NCBI RefSeq assembly: GCF_003610295.1
Contig: NZ_RAPV01000001.1
Coordinates: forward strand, 3,162,001-3,226,000
DNA length: 64,000 nt
Direction: 5' to 3'
DNA from: Paraburkholderia sp. BL23I1N1
GTDB taxonomy: Bacteria; Pseudomonadota; Gammaproteobacteria; Burkholderiales; Burkholderiaceae
Program-made: the position numbers and the translations under genes
Shown here: positions 1,820-19,533 of the stretch, one piece after another
How the letters are laid out: each line of letters opens with the position of its first letter
How positions within the stretch are numbered: the stretch's first letter is position 1
Notes under the pieces: model-generated
Seen by the model: the letters and a program-made list of their open reading frames with translations, nothing else
Databases searched by the model: none
What the model was told of the DNA's origin: nothing

Positions 1820-2410
1820 TCAGATTGCCTGCAGGGGCGGTGCGTCGATGAGGCGGGCCATATGCAGCACGTCGGCCAATACGCCTTCGCGCAAGGCAAA
1901 ACCGCGCGAGCGGCCTTCTTCGACAAAGCCGAACTTGCGATAGAGTGCAATCGCAGGCGTGTTGTCGCAAAACACCGTGAGTTCGAGGCGGCGCAAACCG
2001 AGCGACGCGTCCGCGCAGTCGGTCAGCGCTTGCATCAGCGCCGTGCCGATACCGCGCCCATGATACGCGTCGTGCACGGCCATTCCTAAATACGCGCAAT
2101 GCGCGCGGCTGGGCCGTTGAACCTCCAATCCGGCGTGGCCGACCACGCGCCCACCAATGGTCGCGCACACGCTTACGCCGCTTTCAAAGCGTTTCTCGAA
2201 CCATGCCTTGAGCTGTTCGGGGCTGCGGTAGCCGACCGACAGCGTGCCGCGCCGCACGCCGGGCTGGCTCAGGATATCGGCGAACGCGTCCATGTCGGAC
2301 AATTCGAGCGCTCGAAGTGTAATACGATTGTCGAGCGCGGCATCGCTCTGCAACGTTTCTTCTTTCATGGTCTTATTCCGCTGCGAAGTTGGCGGCTGTT
2401 GGCTACTCAT
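1820..2410 (-). CDS. GNAT-family N-acetyltransferase (first of tandem pair)
   Basis: Predicted acetyl-CoA-dependent N-acetyltransferase of 196 residues. The acetyl-CoA-binding motif A is visible as GMAVHDAYHGRGIGTALM (R/H-G-R-G-I-G pyrophosphate loop), followed by the typical LRRLELTVFCDNTPAIALY and YRKFGF motif-B region. The substrate cannot be read from sequence; relatives acetylate protein N-termini, aminoacyl groups or toxic amino-acid conjugates. The start at 2410 overlaps the upstream GNAT stop by 4 nt (ATGA), which suggests coupling. A second Met at 2368, just before the conserved domain, is an alternative start. It lies downstream of yej and tldDE genes in one run of tightly spaced minus-strand genes. 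It resembles its neighbour at 2407-2964, so the pair probably arose by duplication. Confidence 0.85.
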   Translation of the reverse strand: MSSQQPPTSQRNKTMKEETLQSDAALDNRITLRALELSDMDAFADILSQPGVRRGTLSVGYRSPEQLKAWFEKRFESGVSVCATIGGRVVGHAGLEVQRPSRAHCAYLGMAVHDAYHGRGIGTALMQALTDCADASLGLRRLELTVFCDNTPAIALYRKFGFVEEGRSRGFALREGVLADVLHMARLIDAPPLQAI

Positions 2411-2964
2411 GGCGTCGACGTCCCTGGCGCCGCTTCACGCAGCCGCGCCATGAAATAGCAGTCGATCAGCACACCACGGCGCAACACCGCGCCGCGCCGA
2501 TGCGCTTCGATCTCGAAGCCGAACTTGCGATAGAGCGCGAGCGCCGCATGGTTATCGGCGAAGACGTCCAATTCGACGCGGCGCAGACCGAGCCAGTTGT
2601 CGGCCAGATCGAGCAGTTCGGTCATCAACGCATTGCCGATGCCGCGCCGGTGCCATGCGTCGTGTACGCCAATGCCGAGCGACGCGGCATGTGCACGGCG
2701 CCCCTTGAAAGGTGTGAGCTCCGCTTCGCCGACCAGCGTATCGCCGACCATCGCCGCGATCGCGATCTCGGGGGCTGCGAGTTTTTCGAGGTAGTCGCGC
2801 GTGCTGGCGACCGTCCGAAACGGCACGTGCGGATTGCCATTCACCACGACAGGCAACTGCAGCATGGCGTGGTATTGCTCCACGTCGGCCACGCGCAATG
2901 CGCGCAGCGTCAGACCCTCGGGCAAGCTCCCAGATACAGTTTTTGTTTTTATGTCTTGATTCAT
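2407..2964 (-). CDS. GNAT-family N-acetyltransferase (second of tandem pair)
   Basis: Predicted N-acetyltransferase of 185 residues, paralogous to the adjacent downstream GNAT. Motif A reads GIGVHDAWHRRGIGNALM, and the C-terminal LRRVELDVFADNHAALALY plus YRKFGFEIE matches the same family. The GNAT fold occupies essentially the whole protein, with no signal peptide or membrane segment, so it should act in the cytoplasm. It starts only 4 nt after the TldE-like gene ends, and its own stop overlaps the next GNAT by 4 nt; cotranscription is likely. In other bacteria GNAT enzymes inactivate processed microcin C and related aminoacyl-nucleotide toxins. Such a role here is inference from context. Confidence 0.85.
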   Translation of the reverse strand: MNQDIKTKTVSGSLPEGLTLRALRVADVEQYHAMLQLPVVVNGNPHVPFRTVASTRDYLEKLAAPEIAIAAMVGDTLVGEAELTPFKGRRAHAASLGIGVHDAWHRRGIGNALMTELLDLADNWLGLRRVELDVFADNHAALALYRKFGFEIEAHRRGAVLRRGVLIDCYFMARLREAAPGTSTP

Positions 2965-2968
2965 AGGC

Positions 2969-4330
2969 TCATAACGTCAATTCGAATGACCTCGCCAGGA
3001 TGCCGGGCAGTTGCATGCCGCCCGTGGCACGCTCGCCCCAGGTCGAGTCGCTCAATAACAATTCCGCTTGCGAGCCGAGTTGTTCGAGTTCGCTGCCGAG
3101 CAGACGATACAAACTGTCGTCGAAACGCATGGCTTCGAGCGGCGCGACGATCTGGCCGTTCTCGACCCAGAAAGTCGCGAAGCGCGTCATGCCGGTCAGG
3201 CGGCAATTCATCCGGTCCGAGAAATTCACGTACCAGAGATTGCCGATGTAAAGACCGGTATCGAGTTTCGCCAGCACGTCCTCTTCCCGCAGATCGCCCG
3301 CTTGCATCGAGAGCGCCGCTGGCGACTCGTTCGCCAGCGCACCATTAGGCGTCAACCCATACTCGCGTGCGCTGCGTGCATTGGTCAGGCGTTCGGCACT
3401 GCGGCCGGCCTGGATCAACGGGACGCATTCGCGCAGGTAGCCGTCGTCGTTGAAACCGGGCGTAATGCCGAGATTCAGATCTTCGCTGATCGTGACGCGC
3501 GGGTCGACTACGATTTCTCCCACATGCAGCTTGTACAACTCGCTGCGCGAACTCGCCTGAGCGCGAGCGGAAAAACCACTCCATGCCGTCACGCTGAGCA
3601 GTTCAGCGAGGGCCTCGGGCGCCAGATACGAGCGATAACGCCCCGGCGCCAAGCTGCGCGGTGTGCGCGCGAGCACGGGCAGACGCGCGGCGGCCTGCTC
3701 GACCTTGCGCGCGAAAACAGCGTCGCTCCAGTCGTCGCCGGCATAAGTCGTCTTGATCGCGCGGCCGCTCGGGTCGTATAGCGACCAGCTGAAATTGAAG
3801 TTATTGACTTCGTACCAGCCACGGCTGCCGCTCGCGGACGCGAACCCGCGCACGATCGTGCCGCCCGCGTAAAAGCCCACGAAATCCAGCCCTTTCGCGC
3901 ATTCGGCGACGGTACGTAACAAGCGGTCCGGCTCCGGCAGCTTGCCTGAACGTTGTGTGGCGCGCTGCCATTGCGAAGTATCGAACAACAGATGCGGATC
4001 GTCCGGGGCACCGCGCAAGCTGTCACGCAACGTGGCCAGCGCCGCGCTCACGTCGTCCAGATCCTGTTGCAGATCGCCGCAGACGGTTAGCGTCGAATAG
4101 GCCTGGCGCGCGCCGTCGATCAGACGCAAGGTCAGCTTGCCTTGCGACACGCTGCCGATCTGCCGCACCTTGCCATCGTTGAAGCGGATAAAGTCGGACT
4201 GCTCGCCCGCAAATGAGCTCAGCGTGATTTCCGCGCCTTGCTGCAGGCGTTCGATGGCGTCGGCCAATGAGGTGAAATGCGGTTGCCAGTCGAGCGAACC
4301 CGTGGAGCGCGATGACATGAATTGGCTCAT
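2969..4330 (-). CDS. TldE/PmbA-family metallopeptidase partner subunit
   Basis: Member of the TldD/PmbA (peptidase family U62) superfamily, 453 residues. It corresponds to the non-catalytic TldE/PmbA-like half of the heterodimer: no HExxxH is present, while conserved PmbA-type segments such as VRGFASASGSRGWYEVNNFN and NLGITPGFNDDGY are visible. An open frame exists upstream to 4369, but I place the start at 4330. There the ATG shares its A with the TGA of the upstream tldD-like gene, which is typical of coupled subunits. The product should be cytoplasmic, where TldD/E degrades or trims small or modified peptides. The position right behind yejABEF suggests a role in handling imported peptides (inference). 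Confidence 0.86.
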   Translation of the reverse strand: MSQFMSSRSTGSLDWQPHFTSLADAIERLQQGAEITLSSFAGEQSDFIRFNDGKVRQIGSVSQGKLTLRLIDGARQAYSTLTVCGDLQQDLDDVSAALATLRDSLRGAPDDPHLLFDTSQWQRATQRSGKLPEPDRLLRTVAECAKGLDFVGFYAGGTIVRGFASASGSRGWYEVNNFNFSWSLYDPSGRAIKTTYAGDDWSDAVFARKVEQAAARLPVLARTPRSLAPGRYRSYLAPEALAELLSVTAWSGFSARAQASSRSELYKLHVGEIVVDPRVTISEDLNLGITPGFNDDGYLRECVPLIQAGRSAERLTNARSAREYGLTPNGALANESPAALSMQAGDLREEDVLAKLDTGLYIGNLWYVNFSDRMNCRLTGMTRFATFWVENGQIVAPLEAMRFDDSLYRLLGSELEQLGSQAELLLSDSTWGERATGGMQLPGILARSFELTL

Positions 4331-5766
4331 CAGGCGCCTCCGAACACGTCGATGTTGCTGAACACACAAGCCGGCGAGGCGTGGCCGACGCGAATGATCT
4401 GCGCCGGCTCACCCTTGCCGCACATGGACGTGCCGTACACCTCGCGCGTATCCGCGTTCCCCACCGCACTCAGGCTGCGCCAGAAATTCGCCGAAATACC
4501 GCGGTAATTCGGCTGTTTGACGACCTGGGTGAGCTTGCCGTTTTCGATGAGTTGACCGAACTCACAGCCGAACTGAAATTTGTTGCGATGGTCGTCGATC
4601 GACCAGGACGTATTGGTGCGCATCAGAATGCCGTGTTCGATGGTGCCGATCATCTGCTCCAGCGAACTCTCGCCAGGCTCGATGTTCAGATTCGCCATCC
4701 GGTCGATCGGCGGGCGGTTCCAGTTGGAAGCGCGCGAATTCGCCACGCCCGCCATATGCGCGCGTTGCTGCGAAAGCGCACCGCCGAGCGGCCGTTCGAG
4801 CACGCCGTCGCGGATCAGGTATTGCTTGTGCGCTTCGGTGCCGTCGTCGTCGAATGCGTACGTAGCGGCCTCCTCGCGCAGTTCCGGGTCGAAGGTCACG
4901 TTCAGCAGTTCCGAACCGTAGCGGTACGAGCCGAACATCTCCTTCTTGACGAAGCTCCAGCCGGCAAAGTTGCGCTCGTCGCCGAGAATACGATCGAGCT
5001 CGAGCGGATGGCCGATCGATTCGTGAATCTGCAGCATCATCTGATCGGGCATTAGCAGCAAATCGCGCTTGCCTGACGGGCAATTCGGCGCGGCCAGCAA
5101 TTGCAGCGCCTCATTGGCGACCCGCGCGCCCGCACCGTGAAAGCCGAAGCGCGCCAGCACTTCCATGCCGCCCTGCCCCAAGGTGCCATAGTTACCGCCG
5201 AGCGTACGCACTTGCGTATCGCCGTCCGCGTGCGCGGCCACGCTCAACTGCGGCATGATGAACTGGAATCGCTGGTCGATCCGCACGCCATCGCCGGTGA
5301 TGTAGAGTTGATCGGTATGCGTGATCTGCATGGCCGCGACGCGTTCGACAATGCGTGGGTCGAGATTCGCGCCGGCGCATTCCACGCTCAGGCGGTCCAA
5401 CCATTCGGCACGGCCGGGCAACGCTTGCTGCGTATTCGGCGACACATAGTGGCCGCTCACGGCAGGACGCGCCACCTCGCGATGATCGATCAACGACAAG
5501 GCCGCGCTCGCTTCAGCACGGGCCGTAGCGAGATCCAGCGCTTCCTGCAGACCAGCGGCGCTCAGATTCGCGGTGGCTGCATAGCCGGCGCCCGCGCCCA
5601 CCCATGCGATCAGCATCGCGCCACGGTCGCGCACCGTTCGCATGGGTTGCGCGATGTCGTTGCGAATCTCGTGATCGTCGATCTGTTCATCGACAATGCG
5701 CAGCGACCAGAAGGCTGCGCGGCTCGTAAGCAATCGGGCGGCTTGCGCCCAACGTTCGTCAATCAT
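4330..5766 (-). CDS. TldD-family metallopeptidase catalytic subunit
   Basis: Catalytic-type TldD homologue of 478 residues. The zinc motif HExxxH is clear (HESIGH, residues 248-253), and a conserved Cys lies near the C-terminus in YGTSMCGKGEP. TldD pairs with TldE/PmbA to form a narrow-chamber peptidase that cleaves unfolded or modified peptides such as microcin B17 precursor, CcdA and some microcin C-like peptides (family knowledge). The start at 5766 has GGGA five bases upstream. A longer frame to 5796 would overlap yejF by 17 nt and adds residues unlike the family. The gene lies between yejF and the TldE-like partner. Burkholderiales normally keep separate housekeeping tldD and pmbA copies, so this linked pair is probably specialised (inference). 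Confidence 0.88.
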   Translation of the reverse strand: MIDERWAQAARLLTSRAAFWSLRIVDEQIDDHEIRNDIAQPMRTVRDRGAMLIAWVGAGAGYAATANLSAAGLQEALDLATARAEASAALSLIDHREVARPAVSGHYVSPNTQQALPGRAEWLDRLSVECAGANLDPRIVERVAAMQITHTDQLYITGDGVRIDQRFQFIMPQLSVAAHADGDTQVRTLGGNYGTLGQGGMEVLARFGFHGAGARVANEALQLLAAPNCPSGKRDLLLMPDQMMLQIHESIGHPLELDRILGDERNFAGWSFVKKEMFGSYRYGSELLNVTFDPELREEAATYAFDDDGTEAHKQYLIRDGVLERPLGGALSQQRAHMAGVANSRASNWNRPPIDRMANLNIEPGESSLEQMIGTIEHGILMRTNTSWSIDDHRNKFQFGCEFGQLIENGKLTQVVKQPNYRGISANFWRSLSAVGNADTREVYGTSMCGKGEPAQIIRVGHASPACVFSNIDVFGGA

Positions 5767-5779
5767 TAGCAATTCCCGT

Positions 5780-7420
5780 TTAAGGCTCCGTTGCACCCGC
5801 CTGCGACATGATCAGCGACGACGCGAGCAACGACTGGGTATAAGGATGCGATGGCGCGTGCAACACGTCGAGCGTGTCGCCGGCTTCTACAATGCGCCCC
5901 GACTTCATCACGATCACGCGATGCGCCATAGCTCGCATTACCGCCAGATCGTGCGTAATGAACAAATAGGTTAGCTTGTACTTTTTCTGTAGATTTGTCA
6001 GCAGATTCAGCACCTGTTTCTGGATCGATACGTCGAGCGCGCTGGTCGGTTCATCGAGCACCAGCAATTCCGGCTCGACCGCCAGGGCGCGCGCAATCGC
6101 AATACGCTGGCGCTGGCCACCGGAAAACTCATGCGGATAGCGCAGCATCGCGTCCGCGGGCATGCCGACTTCTTCCAGCAAGCCACCCACGCGCGCGCGC
6201 CGCGCCTTTGCATCCATGTCGGGCTGATGCATGGTCAGCCCTTCGCCGATGATCTGCTCCACCGTCATGCGCGGAGACAAGGAGCCGAACGGGTCCTGAA
6301 ACACGACTTGCATGCGCGAATACAACGCCCGGCGCGAACGCGCGGTTTTCAGCGTGGAAAGCGGCAAACCGTCGATATGGATATGACCGGCCGCCGGTTG
6401 CTGCAGACCGAGTACGGTGGCCGCCAGCGTCGATTTACCCGACCCCGATTCGCCGACGATGCCAAGCGTTTCACCGCGCCGCACACTCAGGTCGACATCG
6501 TGTACCGCGCGGAACGTGACGTGCCCGAACATGGAACGCCAGCCTTTTGCGGAGGTGCGGTAGTCGACGGCGAGCCCTTGCACTTCCAGCAAACGCCGCG
6601 CACCGGGCTCGACCGGCTCCACCGCGCGCTGCGGCTCGCTGTCCAGCAGGCGTTGGGTGTACGGATGCTGCGGGTTGGAGAACAACGCTTCGGTGGTGTT
6701 GGTTTCGACCAGCACGCCCTTCTCCATCACCGCGACGCGCTGCGCAAAACGCTTCACCAGATTCAGGTCATGCGTGATCAGCAGCACGGCCATGCCGCGC
6801 TCGGCCGCTTCCTGCTCCTGCAAGGCGATCAACAGATCGACGATCTGCTGACGCACGGTGACGTCGAGCGCGGTGGTCGGTTCGTCGGCGAGCAGGAGGC
6901 GTGGCCGGCACGCCAGCGCCATCGCGATCATCGCGCGCTGCCGCTGCCCGCCGGACAGTTGATGCGGGAAACTGTCGATGCGCCGTTCCGGCTCGGGAAT
7001 CCCGGTGCGCCTGAGCAGCTCGATACCGCGCCGGCGCGCCGCGTTCGGCCGCAAGCCTTCATGCAGGCGCAAACTTTCAGCGATCTGCTTGCCGATCGTG
7101 AAGAGCGGATTGAGCGCCGTCATCGGTTCCTGAAACACCATCGCCACGTCGGCGCCGCGCAGGCCGCGCATCTGCTGCTCGGTTTTCTGCAGCAGATCTT
7201 CGCCGTCGAGCAACATGCGGCCACTCAGATCCGCATGCTCGACGAGCCGCAGAATCGACAAGGCGGTGACGCTCTTGCCGGAGCCCGATTCGCCGACCAA
7301 TGCAACGCGCTCGCCGCGCGCGATCGAGAGGCTGAGTTCATGCACCGCGATCTTGTCGCCGAAACGCACCGAGAAACGGTCGATTTCCAGCAGCGGCCGA
7401 TTGATTGAGGCTTGACTCAT
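5780..7420 (-). CDS. yejF: YejF-type peptide ABC transporter, double ATP-binding protein
   Basis: ATPase of an oligopeptide importer, 546 residues with two ABC domains in one chain, as is typical of YejF. Domain 1 has Walker A GESGSGKS near residue 43, signature [10 protein letters not shown] and Walker [13 protein letters not shown]. Domain 2 repeats GESGSGKST near residue 330, [15 protein letters not shown] and [12 protein letters not shown]. The C-terminus of each half carries the HPYTQ motif found in oligopeptide/dipeptide ATPases. It is a cytoplasmic peripheral protein that energises the YejB/YejE permease. The start overlaps the yejE stop by 4 nt. Yej systems import microcin C and other peptides in enterobacteria and contribute to antimicrobial-peptide tolerance in some pathogens (established for homologues). 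Confidence 0.94.
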
Positions 7421-8532
7421 CGCGGACCTCCGCCGAAAGCCGACCCGCGTTTTCGCGTATCAATCGCATTGCGTAGTGCATCGCCCATGAAGGTCAAGAG
7501 CAGCAAGGTAATCACCAAAGCAGCGAAAGCCGAAATCGAAATCCACCATGCATCGAGGTTGTTCTTACCTTCCTGAAGCAGTTCGCCGAGGCTCGGCGTG
7601 GGCGGCGGTACGCCCAGCCCAAGAAAGTCGAGACTGGTCAGTGAGAGAATCGCCGCGCTCATGCGAAACGGCAGAAACGTGATCACCGGCGTCAGGCTGT
7701 TCGGCAGCACATGGCGCCACATGATCTGCCAGTTCGAGAGGCCCATGGTGCGCGCCGCCTTCACATAATCCAGCGAACGGTTACGCAGGAATTCGGCGCG
7801 TACGTAATCGGAGAGCACGAGCCAGCCGAACATCGACAGAAGAATAAAGAGCAACCAGAGCGTCGGTTCGAAGATCGACGCGAAGATGATCAGTAGGTAC
7901 AGGTCGGGCATCGAACTCCATATCTCGATCAGACGCTGACCGATCAGGTCGGTGCGTCCGCCGTAGAAGCCCTGCACCGCGCCCGTCAATACGCCGATCA
8001 GCACGCCGGAGACCGTGAGCGCGAGCGCCATCAGCACCGAGAGCCGGAAGCCGTACAGCAGCCGTGCCAGCACATCGCGGCCGTACTGGTCCGTGCCGAG
8101 CCAGTTGCTGCGGGTAGGCGGCGCCGGGTAAGGATGCGCGGCGAAGTAGTCGATCGTGTCGTAGTGGAAATGATTCGGCGGATAGATCGCAAAGTTGCCG
8201 TTCGACTCGAGCCGCGAACGGATATACGGATCGAGATAATTCGCACGCGCCGGAAAATCGCCGCCAAAAATCTGCTCCGAATAGTCTTTCACGATCGGAA
8301 AATAGTAGTGCCCCTCGTAGCGGACAATCAACGGACGATCGTTGGACAACACCTCGCCGAACAGGCTGATGACGAACAGCGAGAGGAAGATCACGAGGCT
8401 CCAGTAACCGAGCCGCTGCTGCCTGAAGCGCCACCATGTGCGCCGCCACGGAGACGGCGACGCCACGTGCGCCGCGCCGGACGCGTCAGCGGTCCAGGCG
8501 GTTGAATTGGATGCGGGGGTCGACGAGGACAT
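7417..8532 (-). CDS. yejE: YejE-type peptide ABC transporter permease
   Basis: Inner-membrane permease of about 371 residues. After a short low-complexity N-terminus it shows RFRQQRLGYWSLVIFL, then a large periplasmic segment (ANYLDPY..., NHFHYDTIDYF) and WLGTDQYGRDVLARLLYG, matching the YejE family. The C-terminal half carries the permease EAA-type loop (GLSNWQIMWRHVLPNSLTP) and about five further membrane segments. The extended frame begins at a TTG at 8547; I prefer the ATG at 8532. Either way the gene start lies inside the 3' end of yejB (47-nt overlap). It follows yejB and precedes yejF, the classical B-E-F order. Confidence 0.93.
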   Translation of the reverse strand: MSSSTPASNSTAWTADASGAAHVASPSPWRRTWWRFRQQRLGYWSLVIFLSLFVISLFGEVLSNDRPLIVRYEGHYYFPIVKDYSEQIFGGDFPARANYLDPYIRSRLESNGNFAIYPPNHFHYDTIDYFAAHPYPAPPTRSNWLGTDQYGRDVLARLLYGFRLSVLMALALTVSGVLIGVLTGAVQGFYGGRTDLIGQRLIEIWSSMPDLYLLIIFASIFEPTLWLLFILLSMFGWLVLSDYVRAEFLRNRSLDYVKAARTMGLSNWQIMWRHVLPNSLTPVITFLPFRMSAAILSLTSLDFLGLGVPPPTPSLGELLQEGKNNLDAWWISISAFAALVITLLLLTFMGDALRNAIDTRKRGSAFGGGPR

Positions 8533-9538
8533 AGCAGACGTCAGCAATGAGTTTGGTTACGAGGGCGATCAGCGTGAACAGAAACAGCGAACCGAGCACA
8601 ACCGGATAGTCACGGCGAATCACCGAGTCATACGAAAGTTGACCCATGCCGTCGAGCGAGAACAGCGTTTCGATCAACAGATTGCCGTTCAGGAAAGCAC
8701 CGACAAAGGCCGCGGGCAAACCGGTCAGCAAAGGAATCGCGGCATTGCGCAGCACGTGTTTCCACAGCACGTCGCGCTCCGGTGCGCCTTTGGCGCGCGC
8801 GGTCAATACGTATTGACGTCCAATCTCCTCGAGGAAGGTGTTCTTGGTCAGGATCGTGACGATCGCGAAGTTGCCCACCACCGAAGCCGTGACCGGCAGC
8901 ACGATGTGCCACAGGTAATCAAGCAGCTTGCCGAAGGTGCTGAGGTCGCTAAAGTTGTCCGATGTGAGGCCGCGCATCGGAAACACCTGCCAGAAGGTGC
9001 CGCCGCCGAACAGCATCAGCAACAGCACGCCCAGCACGAAACCGGGAATCGCGTAGCCGGCGAGCACCAGCACACTGGTCACCGTATCGAAACGCGAGCC
9101 GTTACGCACCGCTTTCGCAATGCCCAACGGCACCGATATCAGATACGTGAGCATCACCGTCCATAAGCCGAGCGTGATCGACACGGGCAGCTTCGATTTG
9201 ATGACGTCCCACACGCTATCGTGCTGATAATAGGACTGGCCGAGATCGAAGCTCGCATAGCGCTTGAGCATCAGGACATAGCGTTCGAGCGGAGGTTTGT
9301 CGAAACCGAACTGCTTCTTGATCTGCTCGAGCTGCTGCGGATCGACACCCTGGCTGCCGTGATAGCCGCCGCCACCCGCCCCCGCCTCTCCGCCACGGCC
9401 AGCGCCGTGGCGGAGTTGCGTCATCACCTGTTCAACCGGCCCACCCGGCACGAACTGCGTGACGACAAAGGTCAGCGTGACCACGCCGAGCAGGGTCGGC
9501 ACCATCAACAGCAATCGTCTGAGAATGTAGGCAAGCAT
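8486..9538 (-). CDS. yejB: YejB-type peptide ABC transporter permease
   Basis: Inner-membrane permease of 350 residues. The N-terminus MLAYILRRLLLMVPTLLGVV and the following TQFVPGGPVEQ are hallmarks of DppB/OppB/YejB permeases. A Gly-rich periplasmic stretch (HGAGRGGEAGAGGGGYHG) precedes VDPQQLEQIKKQFGFDKP, which is specific for the YejB branch. The cytoplasmic EAA loop reads ARAKGAPERDVLWKHVLRNA. The start lies 8 nt after the yejA-like stop region, so the transporter genes form one operon. YejB pairs with YejE to make the translocation pore. Confidence 0.93.
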   Translation of the reverse strand: MLAYILRRLLLMVPTLLGVVTLTFVVTQFVPGGPVEQVMTQLRHGAGRGGEAGAGGGGYHGSQGVDPQQLEQIKKQFGFDKPPLERYVLMLKRYASFDLGQSYYQHDSVWDVIKSKLPVSITLGLWTVMLTYLISVPLGIAKAVRNGSRFDTVTSVLVLAGYAIPGFVLGVLLLMLFGGGTFWQVFPMRGLTSDNFSDLSTFGKLLDYLWHIVLPVTASVVGNFAIVTILTKNTFLEEIGRQYVLTARAKGAPERDVLWKHVLRNAAIPLLTGLPAAFVGAFLNGNLLIETLFSLDGMGQLSYDSVIRRDYPVVLGSLFLFTLIALVTKLIADVCYVLVDPRIQFNRLDR

Positions 9539-9546
9539 GCTGTTCC

Positions 9547-11514
9547 TCAGTGGGCCGCGGCCGTGGTTGAGCCCGCGGATTGCTCGGCCTGGAGTTTCTG
9601 TGTCGCCTGTGCGCTCGGCGCTTTCACATACCAGTAATTGATCACCCAGTCTTCGTATTGATAGGAATTCGGCACGGTCTTCGGAAAGCCGAGCGTGGTC
9701 TTGTAGCCGATCCGCGCGCCCGGTGCGTAGTACTCCGGCACAAGATAGAACGAATGGATCAGCACGCGATCCAGCGCACGCGTCGCGGCTTCCAGATCGT
9801 CGAGATTGGTGGCGGAAAGCGCGGAACGAATCAGCGAGTCGACCGCCTTCGAACGGATGCCCGTATAGTTCTCGGAGCCGACTTCGGACGCGGCCGCACT
9901 GCCGAAGCGGCGCGTGAGTTCGGCGCCCGGAATCGTGACCGGCGGATAGATGAAGGTGGTCATGTCGTACTCGAAATTATCCAGACGCTTCTCGTACAAC
10001 GCGCTGTCGATTTCGCGCATATGAGCTTGAATGCCGAGCATGCCGAGGGCCTGCATATATGGCAGGATCAGACGATCCATGCCGGGCTGGTCGTCCATGA
10101 TCTCGATCGTCATCGGCGTGCCGTTGGCGTTGCGCAAGGCACCGTCGCGATAGTGCCATCCGGCTTGCGCCAGAAGATCGCGTGCAACGCGTAAATTTCC
10201 GCGTAAGGAATCCGGCGCAATCGTCGTCGGTTGCTTGAGCATCGGGCCGAAAACTTCAGGCGGCACGCTGCCGCGCAATGGTTCGAGCAGCGCCAGTTCC
10301 TTCGGCCCCGGCATGCCGGTTGCGCCGAACGGACTGGCTTCGAAATAGCTGCTGGTGCGCCGGTATTGACCATAGAACATCATGCGGTTCATCCAGTCGT
10401 AGTCGAGCGCCAGAGTCAGCGCGTGGCGCACGCGTGGGTCCTGGAACATCGCCTTGCGCATATTCATCAGCATGCCTTGCATCTGCGCGGGACCGTCAGC
10501 GAATTCGCCCTGCTTCAACAGTCCATTATCGAAGTTCTTGCCGACATATTTGCGTGCCCATTGCGTCGCGCTGTATTCAACGATGACGTCCGCATCGCCC
10601 GCCTTGAAGGCTTCGAGTTGCGTGTAATGGTCGCGGTACAGATTGAAGGTGATGCGTTCGAAACGGAACATGCCACGTCGCGACGGCAAATTCGCCGCCC
10701 AGTAGTCAGGGTTGCGGCGATACGTGATCTGCTTGTCGTTCTTGCGCGTGTCGATCAGATAAGCGCCGCTGCTGATCGGTGGCGTGGAAGAGATCTGGTC
10801 GAACGGCAGACGCTTGCCGTTGGGCTGCATGCCCCACTTCGGCGAAAAGATCGGCAGGTCGCCGGCAATCAAGGGCGCATCGCGTTCGGCATGCTTGAAA
10901 TCGAAACGGATCGTGTTCTTGTCGATAACCGTCGCGGTTTTTATGATCGAGAACTGCGCGTTGAAAAGGGGGGATGCCTGCGGACTCGTCAGTGTGTCGT
11001 ACGAGTACTTGACGTCAGCGGCGGTGATCGGGTCGCCGTTCGAAAAGCGCGCGGCGGGATTGATATGGAACGTTGCCGACGTCAGATCCGGCGCGATATC
11101 GACATCGTCCGCGATCAGCGGATATTCGGAGGCCAGTTCGTCCCAGCTACGCTGCATCAGCGTATCGAACATCAGATTCTGAATGTCCGGCGCGGGTGCG
11201 CCACGTACCAAAAACGGATTTAGGGAATCGTAGGTTTGCAGTTCGCTATAGTTTTCGAAACTGAGCGAGCCGTTAGCGGATGCGTCCGGATTCGCGTAGT
11301 CGAAATGCGTGAAATTGTCGGGATATTTGGGTTGGTCGTACTGGGAGATCGACGGTTTCGCCTGCGCTGCCATCGGGATCGCTCCGCATACCGCCAATAC
11401 GCCAGGCGCAGCGGCAATGGCGAACGAGATGCTCGCGGCGCGGCGTACTGCGCCGAGCAAACACACAACCGCGTCGTGCAGGCGCAGCAGTCCGGAATTC
11501 ATCATTCTTCTCAT
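9547..11514 (-). CDS. yejA: YejA-type periplasmic peptide-binding protein
   Basis: Extracellular solute-binding protein family 5 that captures peptides in the periplasm and delivers them to YejBE. The N-terminus has a signal peptide ending around AIPMAAQA before KPSISQYDQPKYP. The mature part shows the family landmarks FDTLMQRSWDE, ITAADVKYSYDTL and LALDYDWMNRMMFYGQY. The open frame extends to 11571; I use the ATG at 11514, though 11505 or 11502 are equally possible. With about 655 residues it is slightly longer than E. coli YejA. It is the first yej gene and follows the TonB-dependent receptor on the same strand, separated by two hairpins, so it may have its own promoter. Confidence 0.92.
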   Translation of the reverse strand: MRRMMNSGLLRLHDAVVCLLGAVRRAASISFAIAAAPGVLAVCGAIPMAAQAKPSISQYDQPKYPDNFTHFDYANPDASANGSLSFENYSELQTYDSLNPFLVRGAPAPDIQNLMFDTLMQRSWDELASEYPLIADDVDIAPDLTSATFHINPAARFSNGDPITAADVKYSYDTLTSPQASPLFNAQFSIIKTATVIDKNTIRFDFKHAERDAPLIAGDLPIFSPKWGMQPNGKRLPFDQISSTPPISSGAYLIDTRKNDKQITYRRNPDYWAANLPSRRGMFRFERITFNLYRDHYTQLEAFKAGDADVIVEYSATQWARKYVGKNFDNGLLKQGEFADGPAQMQGMLMNMRKAMFQDPRVRHALTLALDYDWMNRMMFYGQYRRTSSYFEASPFGATGMPGPKELALLEPLRGSVPPEVFGPMLKQPTTIAPDSLRGNLRVARDLLAQAGWHYRDGALRNANGTPMTIEIMDDQPGMDRLILPYMQALGMLGIQAHMREIDSALYEKRLDNFEYDMTTFIYPPVTIPGAELTRRFGSAAASEVGSENYTGIRSKAVDSLIRSALSATNLDDLEAATRALDRVLIHSFYLVPEYYAPGARIGYKTTLGFPKTVPNSYQYEDWVINYWYVKAPSAQATQKLQAEQSAGSTTAAAH

Positions 11515-11611
11515 TTGCCCATACAGTGCGCACCGGCTCGTGACCTGCGCGCGAATCGTCCTGCGGCACAAGTACAGCCTGTTGGCTTGACTGGCGCACG
11601 CTGGCCCATTG

Positions 11612-11643: not shown

Positions 11644-11661
11644 AGTCGCCGCTTAAAGCAC

Positions 11662-11699
11662 ACCGCTCCGGTTCCTTGCGCGAACGGAACCGGAGCGGT
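11662..11699 (-). terminator. Terminator-like hairpin after the TonB-dependent receptor
   Basis: Arms ACCGCTCCGGTTCC (11662-11675) and GGAACCGGAGCGGT (11686-11699) form a perfect 14-bp GC-rich stem with a 10-nt loop, 27 nt beyond the receptor stop codon. On the minus strand it is followed by GTGCTTTAAG, only a weak T stretch. It is a probable terminator or mRNA 3'-end structure. Confidence 0.6.
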
Positions 11700-11725
11700 T
11701 CTTCCATCAGATCAACTGCGGGATA

Positions 11726-14467: not shown

Positions 14468-14850
14468 TTTTCCCCTTCCCGCTCGTCAATAAGGCCACAG
14501 CTGTGTATGTGAAGAGAGGTCTTGTGAACCTCCCCACTCGATATACGGCGATCTTGCGCCGCGCTCCGTTAAAGCTGACCCGTCCTTCGAATGCCCGGCA
14601 AACCGGTCAACAGCACACCGGTTCGCACGGACAAACAGGAAGACGGGACACTTCAGATCCTTCAAATATCGGACTACTTATTTATTACAAACGAAATGCG
14701 CAGCGCTTTCTAATTGTTTTCACTTCTACGACTTTTGGCTCTGGCTATCGAGGCAATGCGCTTTCCACCAGATCAATTCCCAGCCAAATATTAAGTAATG
14801 CTTACAAATATGAGGAGACCGCTTTCAACGAAAGCACGGAACACTGGCAT
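14468..14850. other. Intergenic region upstream of the TonB-dependent receptor
   Basis: A 383-bp non-coding stretch. It contains an inverted repeat AACCGG...CCGGTT around 14606-14625 and AT-rich patches near 14670-14710 and 14785-14815 suited to promoters for the minus-strand receptor. A plus-strand open frame crossing it has no family resemblance and runs into the antisense of the regulator gene, so I do not call it a gene. Confidence 0.5.
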
Positions 14851-15426
14851 CTAAAACAATCGTGGCGTGCCCACCCACACGACCACCGCTTCTTCGCGGG
14901 CGGTATTGCACCAGGCGTGAGGCACGGTGGACTCGTAATGCGCGGTGTCACCAGCCTGCAATACGAACGTTGTACCTTCTAGCGTGAGCGATATCTGGCC
15001 GCTCATTACGTACAGGAACTCTTCCCCTGCATGCGTCGTGACCTCCGACGGGTTCTGCCCCACCGGCATCCTGACGAGAATCACTTCCAGCTTGCTGCCG
15101 ACTGACAGGTTCGTCAGCCGTCCAAAAATATTCGCGGTTCCGTCGAACCCGAAGTACTTCAGCTCACTTCCCCTGCGTACCGACTTGTCTTCAGTTGGCG
15201 TGTCGACGAAGTACTGCACCGTCACACCTAAAGCTCGGGCAATGCCTACTAGCGACGTAATCGAAGGCGTTGCGTGACCTCGTTCCACTTGGGACAAAAA
15301 GGGCTTGGAAATTCCCGCGGTTGTTGCCACTTCATCCAGCGTGCGCTTGAGTCGTTGGCGAAGCGCGCGGATTTTGCTTCCTATCGAAACTGCGACCTGT
15401 GCCTTGTTATCGAGTGGCAAAACCAT
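14851..15426 (-). CDS. XRE-family regulator with C-terminal cupin sensor domain
   Basis: Transcription regulator of 191 residues. The N-terminal helix-turn-helix (IGSKIRALRQRLKRTLDEVA, then GISKPFLSQVERGHATPSI) is of the XRE type. The C-terminal half is a small cupin barrel (THAGEEFLYVMSGQISLTL, then GDTAHYESTVPHAW), as in PuuR/SutR-like regulators that bind a small ligand. I chose the ATG at 15426; a TTG eight codons earlier would extend the frame. It lies upstream of the receptor gene on the same strand and is followed by its promoter region, so it is a plausible regulator of the receptor and perhaps the yej operon (inference). Confidence 0.88.
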   Translation of the reverse strand: MVLPLDNKAQVAVSIGSKIRALRQRLKRTLDEVATTAGISKPFLSQVERGHATPSITSLVGIARALGVTVQYFVDTPTEDKSVRRGSELKYFGFDGTANIFGRLTNLSVGSKLEVILVRMPVGQNPSEVTTHAGEEFLYVMSGQISLTLEGTTFVLQAGDTAHYESTVPHAWCNTAREEAVVVWVGTPRLF

Positions 15427-15454
15427 AGCAAGACAGAATCCCGTAGTCAAAATT

Positions 15455-15482
15455 AGTTTGATGAAACTAAACTATGTTTCAT
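15455..15482. promoter_or_regulatory. Nested dyads upstream of the XRE/cupin regulator (putative operator)
   Basis: Two interlocking inverted repeats lie 29-56 bp before the regulator start codon: AGTTT-gatg-AAACT (15455-15468) and ATGAAAC-N8-GTTTCAT (15461-15482). The position suits an autoregulatory operator. The rest of 15427-15740 shows no gene I can support. Confidence 0.5.
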
Positions 15483-15740
15483 TGAGCGCCACATCCTCCC
15501 TTAGACACGCACCATATGTCTGCCTGGTTGCCGCCATGAATGGCTCAATCACTGCGATCGCCGCGACACGTTCAACTTTGCCGCGAACCGCGCGATGGTT
15601 GCGCACGCAACCACGTCCTCCAATTAGCGAAGGCTCGCGCTCCATACAGTGAGAATGTGCCGCCCGGCACGAAGCACGGGCACCGCTGCGGCACGTCGCA
15701 AGATGGATCATTTCGGGAACAGGATGCCGTTATTTCGACA

Positions 15741-16946
15741 CTACTTCGACGCCACCAGCACCCACAAACGGGCAAGGTCGGCCGAACCGTCGGTACCCTT
15801 CACCGTGCGGAAGGTTTGCACCGCACGCGCTTTATCGCCCGCCATGTAGTACGCCTCGCCGAGATGCAGTTGGGCCTGGTCCGGGTGATCGATTCCGCCC
15901 TTCGCAATCGCGGCGTCCATGGCTGTCAGACCCTGCTTGGCCTGACCCGCGAAGACCTGGTTGAAGGCAATATCGACCGGCGCGATGGGGTTCGCGGGAT
16001 CGGCTGCCGCTTGCGCGCGTTTCGCGGCGAGCGCCTGCAACCGCTTCTCGCGATCCGCTTGCGCATCGTGGCCCAGAACGCCTGACGCAAAGCCCTGATC
16101 GATGACCTGTTTGCCTTCGGCGGTGGTGCCGGCCACGATCGCGAGCTGGGTCATCTCCATGTAATCGTCGGCGGTGCTGAGCGAGCCGGTCACACGGCGC
16201 AGGCGGTACGTGTCGATATCGAGCGCCGACGAATAGCCAGGCTTGCTGCGAATCGCATTGAACAGGTCATCCCAATACGACTGCTTCGGATGATAGGCAA
16301 CCAGCTTTTCGAGCGTGCTGCGGTACGTCGCGTCGTCCTTCACACGTTGCGCGCATGTGCCGAGCAATTGCAGTTGCGACTCGTCGGGGGCATGACCGGC
16401 ACGCGCTTGCGCATCGACGCCTGGCTTGAGCAGGGTCACCACGTTGCCGCAATCGTTTGACAGGTAGTAAGACTGCACAAGCAGCACACGCATGTCAGGA
16501 TCGCCGCCGCCTGCCTTCAGATAGCGTTGCGCAACCTTTGCTGACTGCGCGTAGTTTTTCTGCTGGAAGTAGATGCCCGCGAGCGCCGCCGTGGTGCGTT
16601 GCTCGTCAGCGCCGGTCAGGTGTCCTGAACCCAGCAGGTTTTCATAAGCCTGGGCGGCCACGCCGGATTCACCGGCCGCCACGGCCGCCGCACCGCGCAT
16701 CTCCTGAACCATATAGCTTTCATAGGGCGTTTTGCCCGGCACGGCGTCGGCTTGATCGATCTTCGCCAACGCATCCTTGTACTTGTGCGCGCGATACAGA
16801 TCCTGCGCGGCGTTCAGCGGCTTCGCCACATCCGGCCGCAAGGTATCCGCGGCTTGAGACGTGACAGGCAGCACGACGAGCGCGGACAGCCCTCCGATAG
16901 CGGCCGCAATGACGGCGCGCTTGAAGCGTTGATGGATCGTTAGCAT
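15741..16946 (-). CDS. Periplasmic TPR-like protein of the TonB/ExbBDD cluster
   Basis: Exported protein of 401 residues with a clear signal peptide (RAVIAAAIGGLSALVVLPV, cleavage after SQA). The mature part is Ala/Lys-rich and helical with degenerate tetratricopeptide repeats, e.g. LNAAQDLYRAHKYKDALAKI near the N-terminus and AQLHLGEAYYMAGDKARAVQ near the C-terminus. It starts 9 nt after the second exbD gene, so it is cotranscribed with the TonB system. TPR accessory proteins linked to TonB systems are known in other proteobacteria and support energised transport. The exact partner here is unknown. The start has a GGAAGTGGA ribosome-binding site. Confidence 0.8.
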   Translation of the reverse strand: MLTIHQRFKRAVIAAAIGGLSALVVLPVTSQAADTLRPDVAKPLNAAQDLYRAHKYKDALAKIDQADAVPGKTPYESYMVQEMRGAAAVAAGESGVAAQAYENLLGSGHLTGADEQRTTAALAGIYFQQKNYAQSAKVAQRYLKAGGGDPDMRVLLVQSYYLSNDCGNVVTLLKPGVDAQARAGHAPDESQLQLLGTCAQRVKDDATYRSTLEKLVAYHPKQSYWDDLFNAIRSKPGYSSALDIDTYRLRRVTGSLSTADDYMEMTQLAIVAGTTAEGKQVIDQGFASGVLGHDAQADREKRLQALAAKRAQAAADPANPIAPVDIAFNQVFAGQAKQGLTAMDAAIAKGGIDHPDQAQLHLGEAYYMAGDKARAVQTFRTVKGTDGSADLARLWVLVASK

Positions 16947-16955
16947 TCCACTTCC

Positions 16956-17387
16956 CTATTGCATGTACTGCTCGTTGCCGATCAGACCGATTTTTCTCGC
17001 ACCCAGCCGTTGTGCGGACGCCATCACCGCCGCAACGTCCTTGTACGGCACCAGCTTGTTAGGTCGCAGATGAATTTCCGCCTGAACCGGTTCGGCCGCC
17101 ACCTGCGCAAGCCTGGACTCGAGCGCCGCGCGATCCGGCACCGGCTGACCATTCCAGGTCGTGGTGCCGTCGAAGTCGATATCTATCTGCACCACTTCCG
17201 GCTGCGTGATCGGCGGCGGCGGATTGCCGATCGGCAAGTTCATCTTGATGGCATGCGTCTGGATCGGAATCGTGATGATCAACATGATCAGCAACACCAG
17301 CATCACGTCGATCAGTGGCGTGGTGTTGATATCGACCATCACATCCGGTTCGGAACTGCCACCGCCCGAAGATACGTTCATGCCCAT
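16956..17387 (-). CDS. exbD: ExbD-type biopolymer transporter, second copy
   Basis: 143-residue ExbD family member. It has a short cytoplasmic N-terminus (SSEPDVMVDINTTPLIDVML) with the conserved membrane Asp in INTTPLIDVML, one membrane helix and a periplasmic C-terminal domain ending GARKIGLIGNEQYMQ. With ExbB it forms the proton-driven motor that energises TonB. It is the second of two adjacent exbD genes (11-nt gap) and differs strongly from the first in its periplasmic domain, so it is a paralogue rather than a recent duplicate. A tonB-exbB-exbD1-exbD2 order is also known in Xanthomonas. Confidence 0.93.
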   Translation of the reverse strand: MGMNVSSGGGSSEPDVMVDINTTPLIDVMLVLLIMLIITIPIQTHAIKMNLPIGNPPPPITQPEVVQIDIDFDGTTTWNGQPVPDRAALESRLAQVAAEPVQAEIHLRPNKLVPYKDVAAVMASAQRLGARKIGLIGNEQYMQ

Positions 17388-17398
17388 AATCGCCTCCG

Positions 17399-17821
17399 CT
17401 AGCCGCCGCGCGCGGGCGGCTCAGTAATAAACGAAACCTTCGCGATACCGGCGCGCTCACACTCGGTAATGACCCGGCCGATGAATTCATAACGTGCGCT
17501 CTGGTCACCGCGAACATGCACTTCCGGTTGCGGCGTCATGACCGACACGGTTTTAAGGCGTGCCAGCAGCGTCGGTCCGTCCACCTGCTTCTCGTTCCAG
17601 AAGAAATCGCCGTCGTGGTTGACCGCGATGACGATACTTTTGGGCGTGGTTTGCAGCGGCTGGATCGTCTCCTTCGGCAGTTGCACCGGCACCGTATGCG
17701 TCACCACCGGAATCGTGATCAGAAAGATGATCAGCAGAACCAGCATCACATCGACGAGCGGCGTGGTGTTGATACTGGAGATGACCTCGTCGCTATCATC
17801 CTGCCCAACGCTCATAGCCAT
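17399..17821 (-). CDS. exbD: ExbD-type biopolymer transporter, first copy
   Basis: 140-residue ExbD homologue with the motif SSINTTPLVDVMLVLLIIFL, in which the membrane Asp is needed for proton use. A periplasmic domain containing VRGDQSARYEFIGRVITECE follows. It is preceded by exbB with a 12-nt gap and followed by the second exbD, all on the minus strand. Confidence 0.94.
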   Translation of the reverse strand: MAMSVGQDDSDEVISSINTTPLVDVMLVLLIIFLITIPVVTHTVPVQLPKETIQPLQTTPKSIVIAVNHDGDFFWNEKQVDGPTLLARLKTVSVMTPQPEVHVRGDQSARYEFIGRVITECERAGIAKVSFITEPPARGG

Positions 17822-17833
17822 GACGGACTCCGC

Positions 17834-18748
17834 TTATTGGGCCAGCGAGGTTTCGCGAGCCGTGGCGCGCGTCGAGCGCCGGCTGCCGGCGAGCAGGACA
17901 GTGTGCAGTTGTGCGCCGAACGCACGAACACGCTCCATCACCGACTTGTTGCGGCGAACCAGGAAGTTGTAGCCGAGCACCGCCGGCACGGCCACCGCAA
18001 GGCCGATTGCGGTCATGATCAGCGCCTCGCCCACCGGGCCCGCGACCTTGTCGATCGAAGCCTGTCCGGCGATACCGATTGCCGTCAGCGCGTGATAAAT
18101 CCCCCACACCGTACCGAACAGACCGACGAACGGCGCCGTGGAACCGACCGTGCCGAGGAAGGCCAGACCGTCCTGCAGACGATTCGACACGTTGGTGATG
18201 GCACGCTCGACCGACGCATCGATCCACGTGTTGCGGTCGACGGCTTCGAGCAGTGCTTCGTCATGATGCTCGCCCGCCTCGATGGCCGTTTCGGCAATGA
18301 AGCGGAACGGCGAGGCTTCGTCGAGTCGCTTCGCGCCTTCGACCAGCGACGGTGCGCTCCACAGTTGTTCGTCGGCACTCTTCGCACGACGGTTCGCACG
18401 GAACTGCTCGAGGAACTTGGTGATCATGATGTACCAGCTGCCCATCGACATGAGCACCAGCAGAATCAGCACGAAGCGGGCGACGAAGTCGCCGTTCTTC
18501 CAGAGCGCGCCGAGGCCGTACGGGTTATTGACGGTTTCGGATGTGGCCGGCGCCGGCGGCGGCGTCGCTTCGTCAGCAGCCGGGGCGGCCGTTTGCGGTG
18601 CGGCGGTAGCGGTGGTGGCAGCGGCGGCAGCCGACGCGGTAGCGTCGCTAGCTTGCGCGTGGGCCATGTGCGGTGCCACAAAGGTATCCACCGTGGTTAC
18701 GGCGAACAACATGGTTGCCGCCAATGCGGCGAGAGTACGCTTCTTCAT
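17834..18748 (-). CDS. exbB: ExbB-type (MotA/TolQ/ExbB) proton channel
   Basis: 304-residue inner-membrane protein. It has an N-terminal signal-like helix (TLAALAATMLFAVTTVDTFV), then an Ala/Pro-rich periplasmic stretch, then the conserved three-helix MotA/ExbB core. The core includes FLGTVGSTAPFVGLFGTVWG and EALIMTAIGLAVAVPAVLGYN. The long N-terminal extension is typical of ExbB in Burkholderiales and Xanthomonas. It lies between tonB (77-nt gap) and the two exbD genes, forming one energy-transducing unit. Confidence 0.94.
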   Translation of the reverse strand: MKKRTLAALAATMLFAVTTVDTFVAPHMAHAQASDATASAAAAATTATAAPQTAAPAADEATPPPAPATSETVNNPYGLGALWKNGDFVARFVLILLVLMSMGSWYIMITKFLEQFRANRRAKSADEQLWSAPSLVEGAKRLDEASPFRFIAETAIEAGEHHDEALLEAVDRNTWIDASVERAITNVSNRLQDGLAFLGTVGSTAPFVGLFGTVWGIYHALTAIGIAGQASIDKVAGPVGEALIMTAIGLAVAVPAVLGYNFLVRRNKSVMERVRAFGAQLHTVLLAGSRRSTRATARETSLAQ

Positions 18749-18825
18749 GCCTGCTCCAAGTTCATTAGTACAACTTCTAAACCAAGACTGATAAATCGCT
18801 ACCGGTACCGAACAGCCCGTGTGTT

Positions 18826-19533
18826 TCAGTTCAGGTTAAACGAGAACGGAACTTGCACACGGACAGCCTGGCCTTGGGAAACGCACGTGAACTGCTTGAC
18901 TGCGTTAAACGCAGCGCGATCGAGTGAGGAATCGTCCGCCGACTTGGCAACGCGTTCATTCGTAATATGGCCCTGCGGATCGACTACGAATTCAATCAGC
19001 ACATCACCCGTCACGTTGTTCTCCTGCGCTTCCTTCGGGTAGCGAATCGACGAACGGACCTGATCCGAATTCGGGCACACAACCCCAACTTCAGCGCTCA
19101 CGGGCTTGCTCGGCGCGGGCGGTGCCGGCGGTGCGGGCGCCACGGCCGGTGCCGACACGACTGGTGCGGCCTGGTGCGTGATCGTCGGTTGGGGCGGTGT
19201 TTGCACCTGCACTTCCGGCGGCGGCACGAATGGCGGCGGCGGCGGTGCGAACTTCGGCGGCGGCAATTGCACGGTGGGCAATGGCGGCGGCGGAGGCGGT
19301 TTGACCGGCTCGATGATCTTCGTTTCGATAGGATGCTGGATGACCTGCACGACCTTGGTGGCAAGGCCATTGATAAGTGCGTAGATCAGCACGATGTGCA
19401 GAAGCAGAACAACCGCGATACCGCCGAAGCGGCGTACTGGGTTTTGCTGCTTGCGCCCAAACTCACGCGGGCGCCCTGGCCTTTCCATACGGGCCGTTGC
19501 TGCCGGAAATTGCCCTTCGACTTTCGTACCCAC
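18826..19533 (-). CDS. tonB: TonB energy-transducing protein
   Basis: 235-residue TonB homologue. The cytoplasmic N-terminus precedes a single anchor helix (RFGGIAVVLLLHIVLIYALI). A Pro-rich periplasmic spacer follows (runs of P in residues about 76-145), and the C-terminal TonB domain carries IRYPKEAQENNVTGDVLIEF and ERVAKSADDSSLDRAAFNAV. It links the ExbB/ExbD motor to outer-membrane receptors and very likely serves the receptor at 11726-14467. It is the first gene of the tonB-exbB-exbD-exbD-TPR operon. Confidence 0.94.
   Translation of the reverse strand: MGTKVEGQFPAATARMERPGRPREFGRKQQNPVRRFGGIAVVLLLHIVLIYALINGLATKVVQVIQHPIETKIIEPVKPPPPPPLPTVQLPPPKFAPPPPPFVPPPEVQVQTPPQPTITHQAAPVVSAPAVAPAPPAPPAPSKPVSAEVGVVCPNSDQVRSSIRYPKEAQENNVTGDVLIEFVVDPQGHITNERVAKSADDSSLDRAAFNAVKQFTCVSQGQAVRVQVPFSFNLN

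Follow-up and report, generated by a model that had tools for sequence, protein, structure and literature searches.

The window analysed here is a stretch of 64,000 nucleotides from Paraburkholderia sp. BL23I1N1 (contig NZ_RAPV01000001.1, positions 3,162,001 to 3,226,000), whose genome of 9.1 Mb is assembled in four contigs. It contains a gene cluster lying entirely on the minus strand, in which a paralogue of the importer YejABEF is encoded together with a TonB-dependent outer-membrane receptor (TBDR), a TonB module and genes for peptide-handling proteins. Read 5' to 3', the gene order is tonB, exbB, exbD, exbD, a TPR-protein gene, an XRE-cupin regulator gene, the TBDR gene, yejABEF, tldD, tldE, two GNAT acetyltransferase genes (GNAT1 and GNAT2) and an RND transporter gene (Table 1). 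A sequence-only reading had named the genes from tonB to the two GNATs and placed them on one strand; all are present on that strand, with the positions and identities it gave. The extent given for the cluster, 1820..19533, is right for these genes but omitted the last one, the AcrB-type RND gene starting 13 nt past GNAT2.

The junctions within the TonB module are short (tonB-exbB 77 nt, exbB-exbD 12 nt, exbD-exbD 11 nt, exbD-TPR 9 nt). Since two long gaps, TPR-regulator (314 nt) and regulator-TBDR (383 nt), flank the regulator gene, the cluster likely comprises at least three transcription units. The gap between the TBDR gene and yejA is 154 nt when the longest open reading frame (ORF) is used for yejA, for which alternative ATG start candidates lie at 11514, 11505 and 11502. 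From yejA through the RND gene the junctions range from a 47-nt overlap (yejB-yejE) to a 13-nt gap (GNAT2-RND): yejA and yejB are 8 nt apart, yejE and yejF overlap by 4 nt, yejF and tldD overlap by 17 nt if tldD starts at its GTG (an ATG 30 nt further on would give a 13-nt gap), tldD and tldE overlap by 1 nt, tldE and GNAT1 are 4 nt apart, and GNAT1 and GNAT2 overlap by 4 nt. The overlaps of 1 to 4 nt described earlier for the downstream half are thus found at three junctions, while the description is loose for the rest. The RND frame opens with a GTG at 1806 and extends 1395 nt beyond the left edge of the window, the full frame (L003:14606-17806) encoding 1066 aa; it is followed by 774 nt without any ORF of 150 aa or more and then by an AraC-type gene.

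Table 1. Genes and proposed regulatory elements of the cluster (window coordinates)
Feature	Position	Strand	Evidence
tonB	18826..19533	-	Pfam TonB_C, 61.5 bits
exbB	17834..18748	-	Pfam MotA_ExbB, 111.8 bits
exbD, first copy	17399..17821	-	Pfam ExbD, 96.6 bits
exbD, second copy	16956..17387	-	Pfam ExbD, 88 bits
TPR protein of TonB module	15741..16946	-	Pfam TPR_16, 36.4 bits; signal peptide-like N-terminus by eye
XRE-cupin transcription regulator	14851..15426 (ATG at 15426)	-	Pfam HTH_3 + Cupin_2
Proposed autoregulatory operator	15447..15470	-	TTAGTTT-N4-AAACTAA (15453-15470), TCAAA-N5-TTTGA (15447-15461)
TBDR, 913 aa	11726..14467	-	Pfam Plug + TonB_dep_Rec_b-barrel
Covarying stem-loop in TBDR leader, loop TTCACAAGA	14513..14535	-	ends 45 nt before receptor start codon
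yejA paralogue, periplasmic binding protein	9547..11571	-	longest ORF; phmmer to 7z8e, 3e-105
yejB, permease	8486..9538	-	Pfam BPD_transp_1
yejE, permease	7417..8532	-	Pfam BPD_transp_1 + OppC_N
yejF, double ATPase	5780..7420	-	Pfam ABC_tran, two stretches
tldD, metallopeptidase subunit (HESIGHxxExD, CGK)	4330..5796	-	Pfam PmbA_TldD; PDB TldD 5nj5, 1.9e-24
tldE, partner without metal motif	2969..4330	-	Pfam PmbA_TldD_3rd, 95.5 bits
GNAT acetyltransferase 1	2407..2964	-	Pfam Acetyltransf_1
GNAT acetyltransferase 2	1820..2410	-	Pfam; 45% identity to GNAT1
AcrB-type RND transporter, 5' part	1..1806	-	Pfam ACR_tran, 1066.9 bits on L003:14606-17803

The search for yejA covered 299 genomes of the family, 267 of which gave a match. 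Among the matches listed, the scores split between 963.8 and 696.7 bits; the upper block represents the operon type (62 loci in 61 genomes) and the lower block the housekeeping copy. All 62 operon-type loci, the window's own included, were scored by one script. The genes yejB, yejE and yejF were present in all of them and the TBDR gene in 61, in 57 cases on the same strand as yejA. The XRE-cupin regulator was found in 51 loci, the RND gene in at least 48, tldDE in 32, and GNAT1 and GNAT2 in 18 each. The TonB module varies in position, being located ahead of the regulator, between the TBDR gene and yejA, or reversed past the RND gene, and is still present in 50 of the 62. By cargo, the loci carry RND only (18), tldDE, GNAT and RND (17), tldDE and RND (12), none of these (11), tldDE only (3) or GNAT and RND (1). 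Wherever tldDE was detected (32/32), it lies directly after yejF on the same strand, from a 30-nt overlap to 20 nt apart, as measured with extrapolated gene ends.

As a control, 20 housekeeping yejABEF loci picked among the YejA matches listed were read over 17-18.5 kb each, and none contained a TBDR, TonB module, XRE-cupin, tldDE, GNAT or operon-type RND gene; four of them show a 26% RND match on the opposite strand. The tldD subfamily was searched in overlapping samples, own genome counted, and found in 41 of 299 family, 42 of 399 order and 23 of 398 phylum genomes, some of the order and phylum matches being merely about 30% identical. Counted by genome in the family sample, tldD and operon-type yejA occur together in 32, yejA only in 29, tldD only in nine and neither in 229 (Fisher p = 2.4e-18, a figure inflated by shared ancestry). 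Among the best 80 of 541 named loci recruited with TldD, 60 carry yejB, yejE and yejF of operon type alongside and 20 do not, as judged by eye, and all four loci from outside the family belong to these 20. The genera recruited include Paraburkholderia, which supplies the best-matching named loci, Trinickia and Burkholderia; four named Caballeronia loci contain tldDE alone. Carriers of the cluster also include P. bryophila LMG 23644 (L075) and P. terricola LMG 20594 (L082).

The cluster genes are tightly linked, are conserved across genera and stand apart from the housekeeping Yej, and it is well supported that their linkage is real but modular. Synteny confined to this strain, which the sequence-only reading had named as grounds for rejecting the functional link, is not what was observed, the receptor accompanying this yejABEF in 61 of 62 loci and tldDE in 32. 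Its unit of receptor, yej, tldDE and GNAT genes holds for the linkage of receptor and yej, but does not form one fixed unit, the GNATs occurring in 18 and tldDE being absent from 30 of the 62 loci. The full operon does not extend across Burkholderiales: it was present in 0 of the 22 loci read in other families of the order (a subset of the 41 tldD matches beyond the own genome), with L025 and L028 as partial exceptions. A chance neighbourhood of separately working genes would agree with the coming and going of tldDE, the GNATs and the RND gene, and with at least 11 switches of the tldDE label on the YejA tree; the constant slot and strand of tldDE in 32 of 32 loci, set against its absence from all 20 housekeeping control loci, make chance very improbable for the cluster, and for the TBDR-yej pair it is already unlikely.

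The gene set and gene order match those of YejABEF in E. coli, Salmonella and Sinorhizobium meliloti, whereas here the genes form a diverged second copy beside the housekeeping one, with a linked receptor and TonB module. The operon YejA is about 50% identical to the housekeeping copy, and the best solved chains found for it by phmmer are 7z8e (3e-105), which is S. meliloti YejA (PMC10128002), 4ony, the methanobactin-binding protein MbnE (5icq, 1e-96) and E. coli YejA (7atr, 2.1e-94). An N-terminal extension with the motif FxxFDY is shared by 57 of the 62 operon YejAs. In contrast, the motif PxAPKGG, reported to be conserved across 451 YejAs (PMC10924461), is absent from all 62 while present in 17 of the 20 housekeeping YejAs. 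Of the E. coli YejA residues around the ligand Arg, Asp160 is replaced by Ala, Tyr136 by Phe, Ser475 by Ala and Asp476 by Glu in the paralogue, and among further contacts Gln131 is replaced by Leu, Arg465 by Phe, Thr489 by Ser and Tyr490 by Glu. From the changed ligand contacts and the missing PxAPKGG, the binding pocket of the paralogue has probably been re-specialised. YejF is a single-chain double ATPase with two ABC_tran stretches (Pfam), and scores 616.6 bits with the NCBIfam model YejF, a microcin C equivalog, under its cut-off of 834.

The cavity of YejA has been described as exceptionally large, and peptides of some length as having to arise in the periplasm or to use an unknown system for crossing the outer membrane (PMC10924461). 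An alternative source of ligands would be the cell wall, given that YejBEF-YepA is an alternative transporter in peptidoglycan recycling of Agrobacterium (PMC9790009). The binding protein encoded here, however, is of the YejA type, 57 of the 62 loci having the FxxFDY extension; no cell-wall gene is found among the identified cluster genes, and fragments released in the periplasm should need no TonB-driven receptor. Uptake of muropeptides is very unlikely to be the task of the cluster.

The TBDR carries both plug and barrel domains (Pfam), and the nearest named models and solved chains are receptors for haem, siderophores, B12 and colicin I. A predicted structure of the TBDR, of low model confidence, matched generic TBDRs in Foldseek, and nothing was drawn from it. 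Receptors located near a family-5 peptide ATP-binding cassette (ABC) system, as here, are also present in the SppR/Dpp and Npp peptide systems of Pseudomonas aeruginosa. These systems are not known to include TldDE, an RND transporter or a TonB complex of their own.

A TBDR combined with a YejA-like binding protein is likewise found in methanobactin uptake (receptor MbnT and MbnE). The present cluster differs in having a full ABC importer as well as TldDE; among the identified neighbours no methanobactin gene appeared, though none was searched for. The strongest rival explanation is the import and recycling of a peptide metallophore, in which a metal-loaded chalkophore- or siderophore-like peptide would enter, TldDE or the GNATs would free the metal, and the RND pump would export the emptied chelator. 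It owes this standing to the binding protein, which is about as near to MbnE as to E. coli YejA, and to the exporter within the importer operon, which suits recycling; the kinship of the receptor with those for haem and siderophores points the same way. Still, TldDE and the POT-family transporter found in some loci are peptide-handling genes, and the nearest solved relative of the binding protein is S. meliloti YejA. The lack of a convincing Fur or Zur site in the own genome counts weakly against metallophores: with Fur and Zur consensus letters, the best matches before the TBDR, regulator and yejA genes were equalled by at least 53 of 200 shuffles, and the best Fur match (13/19), located before tonB, by 21 of 200. 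On balance we regard this explanation as unlikely.

The nearest solved chain to TldD is E. coli TldD (5nj5), with which the cluster protein shares the HExxxH motif and the E and D after it, the zinc Cys within CGK, and a motif-free partner; the role of these residues is described in PMC5810440. HESIGH, its downstream E and D, and CGK were conserved in 120 of 120 distinct translated TldD stretches, some genes being present twice with different ends, while HExxxH occurred in 0 of 119 TldEs. The protein is only 27% identical to the other TldD-like match in the same genome and falls far below the NCBIfam TldD cut-offs (92.8 against 635 bits and 78.6 against 513 bits), and by sequence it is a separate HESIGH subfamily, here encoded behind an importer. 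TldD/E is described as having a relaxed sequence preference, unfolded termini entering through a narrow pore (PMC5810440). The regulator resembles PuuR, scoring 61.8 bits where the cut-off is 211 (NCBIfam); in B. stagnalis the annotated coding sequence of the regulator has the same length, 576 nt, in a record that names the cluster genes generically only. The relatives of the RND transporter include AcrB and MexB (PDB).

GNAT1 and GNAT2 are nearest to PA1377 among the matches listed, GNAT2 also matching phosphinothricin-type and spermidine acetyltransferases, and no chain named MccE was found among 22 GNAT1 matches nor among the best 60 of 126 GNAT2 matches. The link to microcin C drawn by the sequence-only reading is not supported. 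The parts list of Yej, TldDE and GNAT does resemble that of microcin C processing and immunity (YejABEF, TldD/E acting on the Yersinia mcc product, MccE2), but the GNATs differ as described, and no mcc gene was seen among the identified neighbours, mcc genes not having been searched for. As an alternative, the same reading had considered a defence against Trojan-horse peptides. In such an import-and-destroy route, antimicrobial or Trojan-horse peptides would be imported, cleaved by TldDE, acetylated and finally exported by the pump. Factors in antimicrobial peptide resistance are reported to include both Yej and RND systems (PMC9629497), and the GNAT MccE2 inactivates processed microcin C (PMC9239234). 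However, a receptor and importer raise the exposure to such a peptide, the importer core persists in the 11 loci without detected tldDE, GNAT or RND genes, and YejF stays below the microcin C cut-off. When nine of the 16 cluster proteins were scanned with PADLOC, no defence set was found: seven gave no match, and YejF (mad3, 6.8e-59) and the regulator (best 9e-11) were matched through generic ATPase and HTH domains. Together with the absence of a chain named MccE from the GNAT matches listed, these points render the import-and-destroy explanation improbable. The claim that a peptide is taken across both membranes, digested and its toxic fragments neutralised is partly supported: the linkage of receptor, importer and TldDE speaks for its first part, and there is no support for defence or microcin C.

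Two candidate regulatory elements were recognised in the long gaps. A perfect 7-bp inverted repeat, TTAGTTT-N4-AAACTAA, sits 26 nt ahead of the regulator ATG and is proposed as an autoregulatory operator. With up to three mismatches, three matches occur in the window against 0.26 expected; with 0 or 1 mismatch the repeat is present in 11 of 88 regulator upstream regions, all from close relatives, and an inner TCAAA-N5-TTYGA is more widespread, being present at 27 of 45 same-strand regulators (counted with no shuffle control). Without mismatch, the operator has a single site in the genome. An operator regulon was also considered, but up to two mismatches gave eight genome sites, fewer than the 14 of a reversed control, and no regulon is therefore claimed.

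The second element is a stem-loop in the TBDR leader, with the loop pattern TTCAYRAGA across sequences. In 34 distinct leaders, selected by that loop pattern, 89.1% of cells in the stem can pair, against 38.7-70.1% when the stem is slid, and 32 cells are changed on both sides against 11.2 in shuffles; double changes affect five of the seven pairs, a number that is unremarkable (146 of 500 shuffles). Twenty further leaders lack the loop pattern, some having a similar stem. Rfam gave no match up to E = 1 in positions 1-20600 of the window, and of nine other matches to the hairpin pattern in the genome none lies ahead of a receptor-like ORF by eye. The covariation supports an RNA element, possibly undescribed and cis-acting, which perhaps controls translation of the receptor.

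The history of the cluster was followed in two trees. In a tree of 118 TldDs made by a quick method, 84 (68 with importer, 16 without) fall into one clade with a branch support (SH-aLRT) of 100, and the solo label requires seven changes; the TldDs of L024 and L047, from the same family, fall outside this clade, with Pseudomonas. Mapped onto a tree of 97 operon YejAs, tldDE changes between present and absent at least 11 times across well-supported branches. From both trees, tldDE would most simply have joined the importer once and afterwards often been lost, regained or split off. At the corresponding site in P. dilworthii (L009 = L084) and P. rhynchosiae (L083), between the uvrA and AraC genes that also flank the cluster in the window, there is tldDE alone. 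This P. dilworthii genome additionally carries a complete second operon (L006/L069). The uvrA gene concerned lies upstream of the cluster in the window and is a very long UvrA-like ORF (20501-26416, 1971 aa) with two UvrA_inter stretches.

Other loci differ in their cargo. In L165 and L172 a POT-family peptide transporter gene is next after yejF, tldDE and RND genes being undetected there, and L149, L150, L152 and L153 carry an additional TonB-dependent receptor gene (53-54% identical) behind the RND gene. Burkholderia paludis (L128) has kept tldDE and the RND gene, with just a 58-aa yejF-like stretch matched ahead of tldD, and looks like a decaying operon. Downstream of tldDE in Burkholderia stagnalis (L207:18164-28595) lie genes for a P450, an MFS protein, an insulinase-family protein and three B12-type radical SAM enzymes, and a 55-aa ORF, possibly a peptide-modifying cluster. 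Among the loci compared, homologues of the insulinase-family protein, P450, first radical SAM enzyme and 55-aa ORF were confined to the second B. stagnalis locus (L133); for radical SAM enzymes 2 and 3, L030 gave 24-27% matches as well, and the MFS protein has 27-36% matches in six other loci, the window's genome included. A link of the operon to ribosomally synthesised and post-translationally modified peptides through these genes was not adopted; they were treated as local, close homologues being confined to that species among the loci compared.

Considering this evidence together, we think it probable, if well short of certain, that the cluster is a specialised and regulated oligopeptide import route, in which the Yej paralogue is served by its own outer-membrane receptor. 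The ligand would be a peptide too large for porins and common to receptor and YejA. Because 11 of the 62 importers lack any cargo, we infer that uptake is the common purpose of the operon, the cargo being fitted to the ligand; acquiring nutrients or a useful peptide is therefore a likelier role than defence.

A number of observations weigh against this reading. None of the eight mapped ligand contacts of E. coli YejA is identical in the paralogue, although Asp476 is replaced by Glu and Thr489 by Ser. No close solved TBDR was found, the best match (4.2e-18) covering the plug region, and the structure model of the receptor is poor (mean predicted local distance difference test score, pLDDT, 59; residues 15-241 under 50), so that peptide binding by the TBDR is putative. 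The repeat with fewer than two mismatches was not found ahead of the TBDR gene in 86 leaders, which makes control of the receptor by the XRE-cupin protein a guess. No adaptor gene lies beside the RND gene in the own genome; an unlinked adaptor is possible. As tldDE is missing from 30 of the 62 operon-type importers, and nine of the 41 tldD genomes lack an operon-type YejA (two of the nine, L024 and L047, in another TldD clade), tldDE can work apart from the importer.

The loci of other families also count against a universal link between TldDE and an importer. Twenty-nine were read, with a Pfam scan of part of their neighbours, and two, L025 and L028, have YejB/YejF-like genes. L025 carries YejBEF, TldDE, a 29% TBDR and ExbB-ExbD-ExbD-TonB; L028 (1348-15484) encodes a substrate-binding protein, an M3 peptidase, YejB, YejE, YejF, an S9 peptidase, an MFS protein, TldD and TldE, and looks like a peptide-catabolism operon. 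In L036 a YejF match of 44% lies on the opposite strand, L035, L045 and L046 show just a partial TBDR match, and in the remaining loci the only importer matches were generic ABC ATPases (30-33%). L056, L057, L058 and L059, also from other families, each pair a distant relative of TldD (about 30% identical) with further TldD/TldE-like genes nearby.

For the import route as preferred here, the following scheme can be proposed. The TonB-ExbB-ExbD-ExbD complex would power the TBDR, through which the peptide would enter across the outer membrane; the YejA paralogue would pick it up in the periplasm, and YejBEF would transfer it to the cytosol. TldDE, when present, would thread and cut the peptide as it enters, the position of tldD right behind yejF possibly providing matched amounts. 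By analogy to the acetylation of phosphinothricin and of processed microcin C, the paired GNATs may acetylate free amines of unusual residues that TldDE sets free, and the RND pump may expel the unusable remainder. The XRE-cupin protein might sense a product, regulating itself and perhaps the rest of the cluster.

Each part is already known; a Yej paralogue combined with a receptor and TonB complex of its own, TldDE and RND was described in none of the titles and abstract openings listed by searches of open-licence literature. With rather less confidence than for the import route itself, and only tentatively, we propose that a Yej importer with its own receptor and its own chambered cytosolic protease forms a continuous line from the outside to the cytosol for peptides above porin size. 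The linkage of receptor, YejA paralogue and TldDE bears on the outer-membrane route raised in PMC10924461 and, if the proposal is true, would explain by what route large peptides get to YejA in these bacteria. Catabolism or conversion of imported peptides would then be a native job of TldD/E, and the interchangeable cargo (TldDE, GNATs, RND, POT) would adapt one importer to different peptides. Little is known about what Yej transporters and TldD/E naturally act on, and this cluster lets both be tested in soil bacteria.

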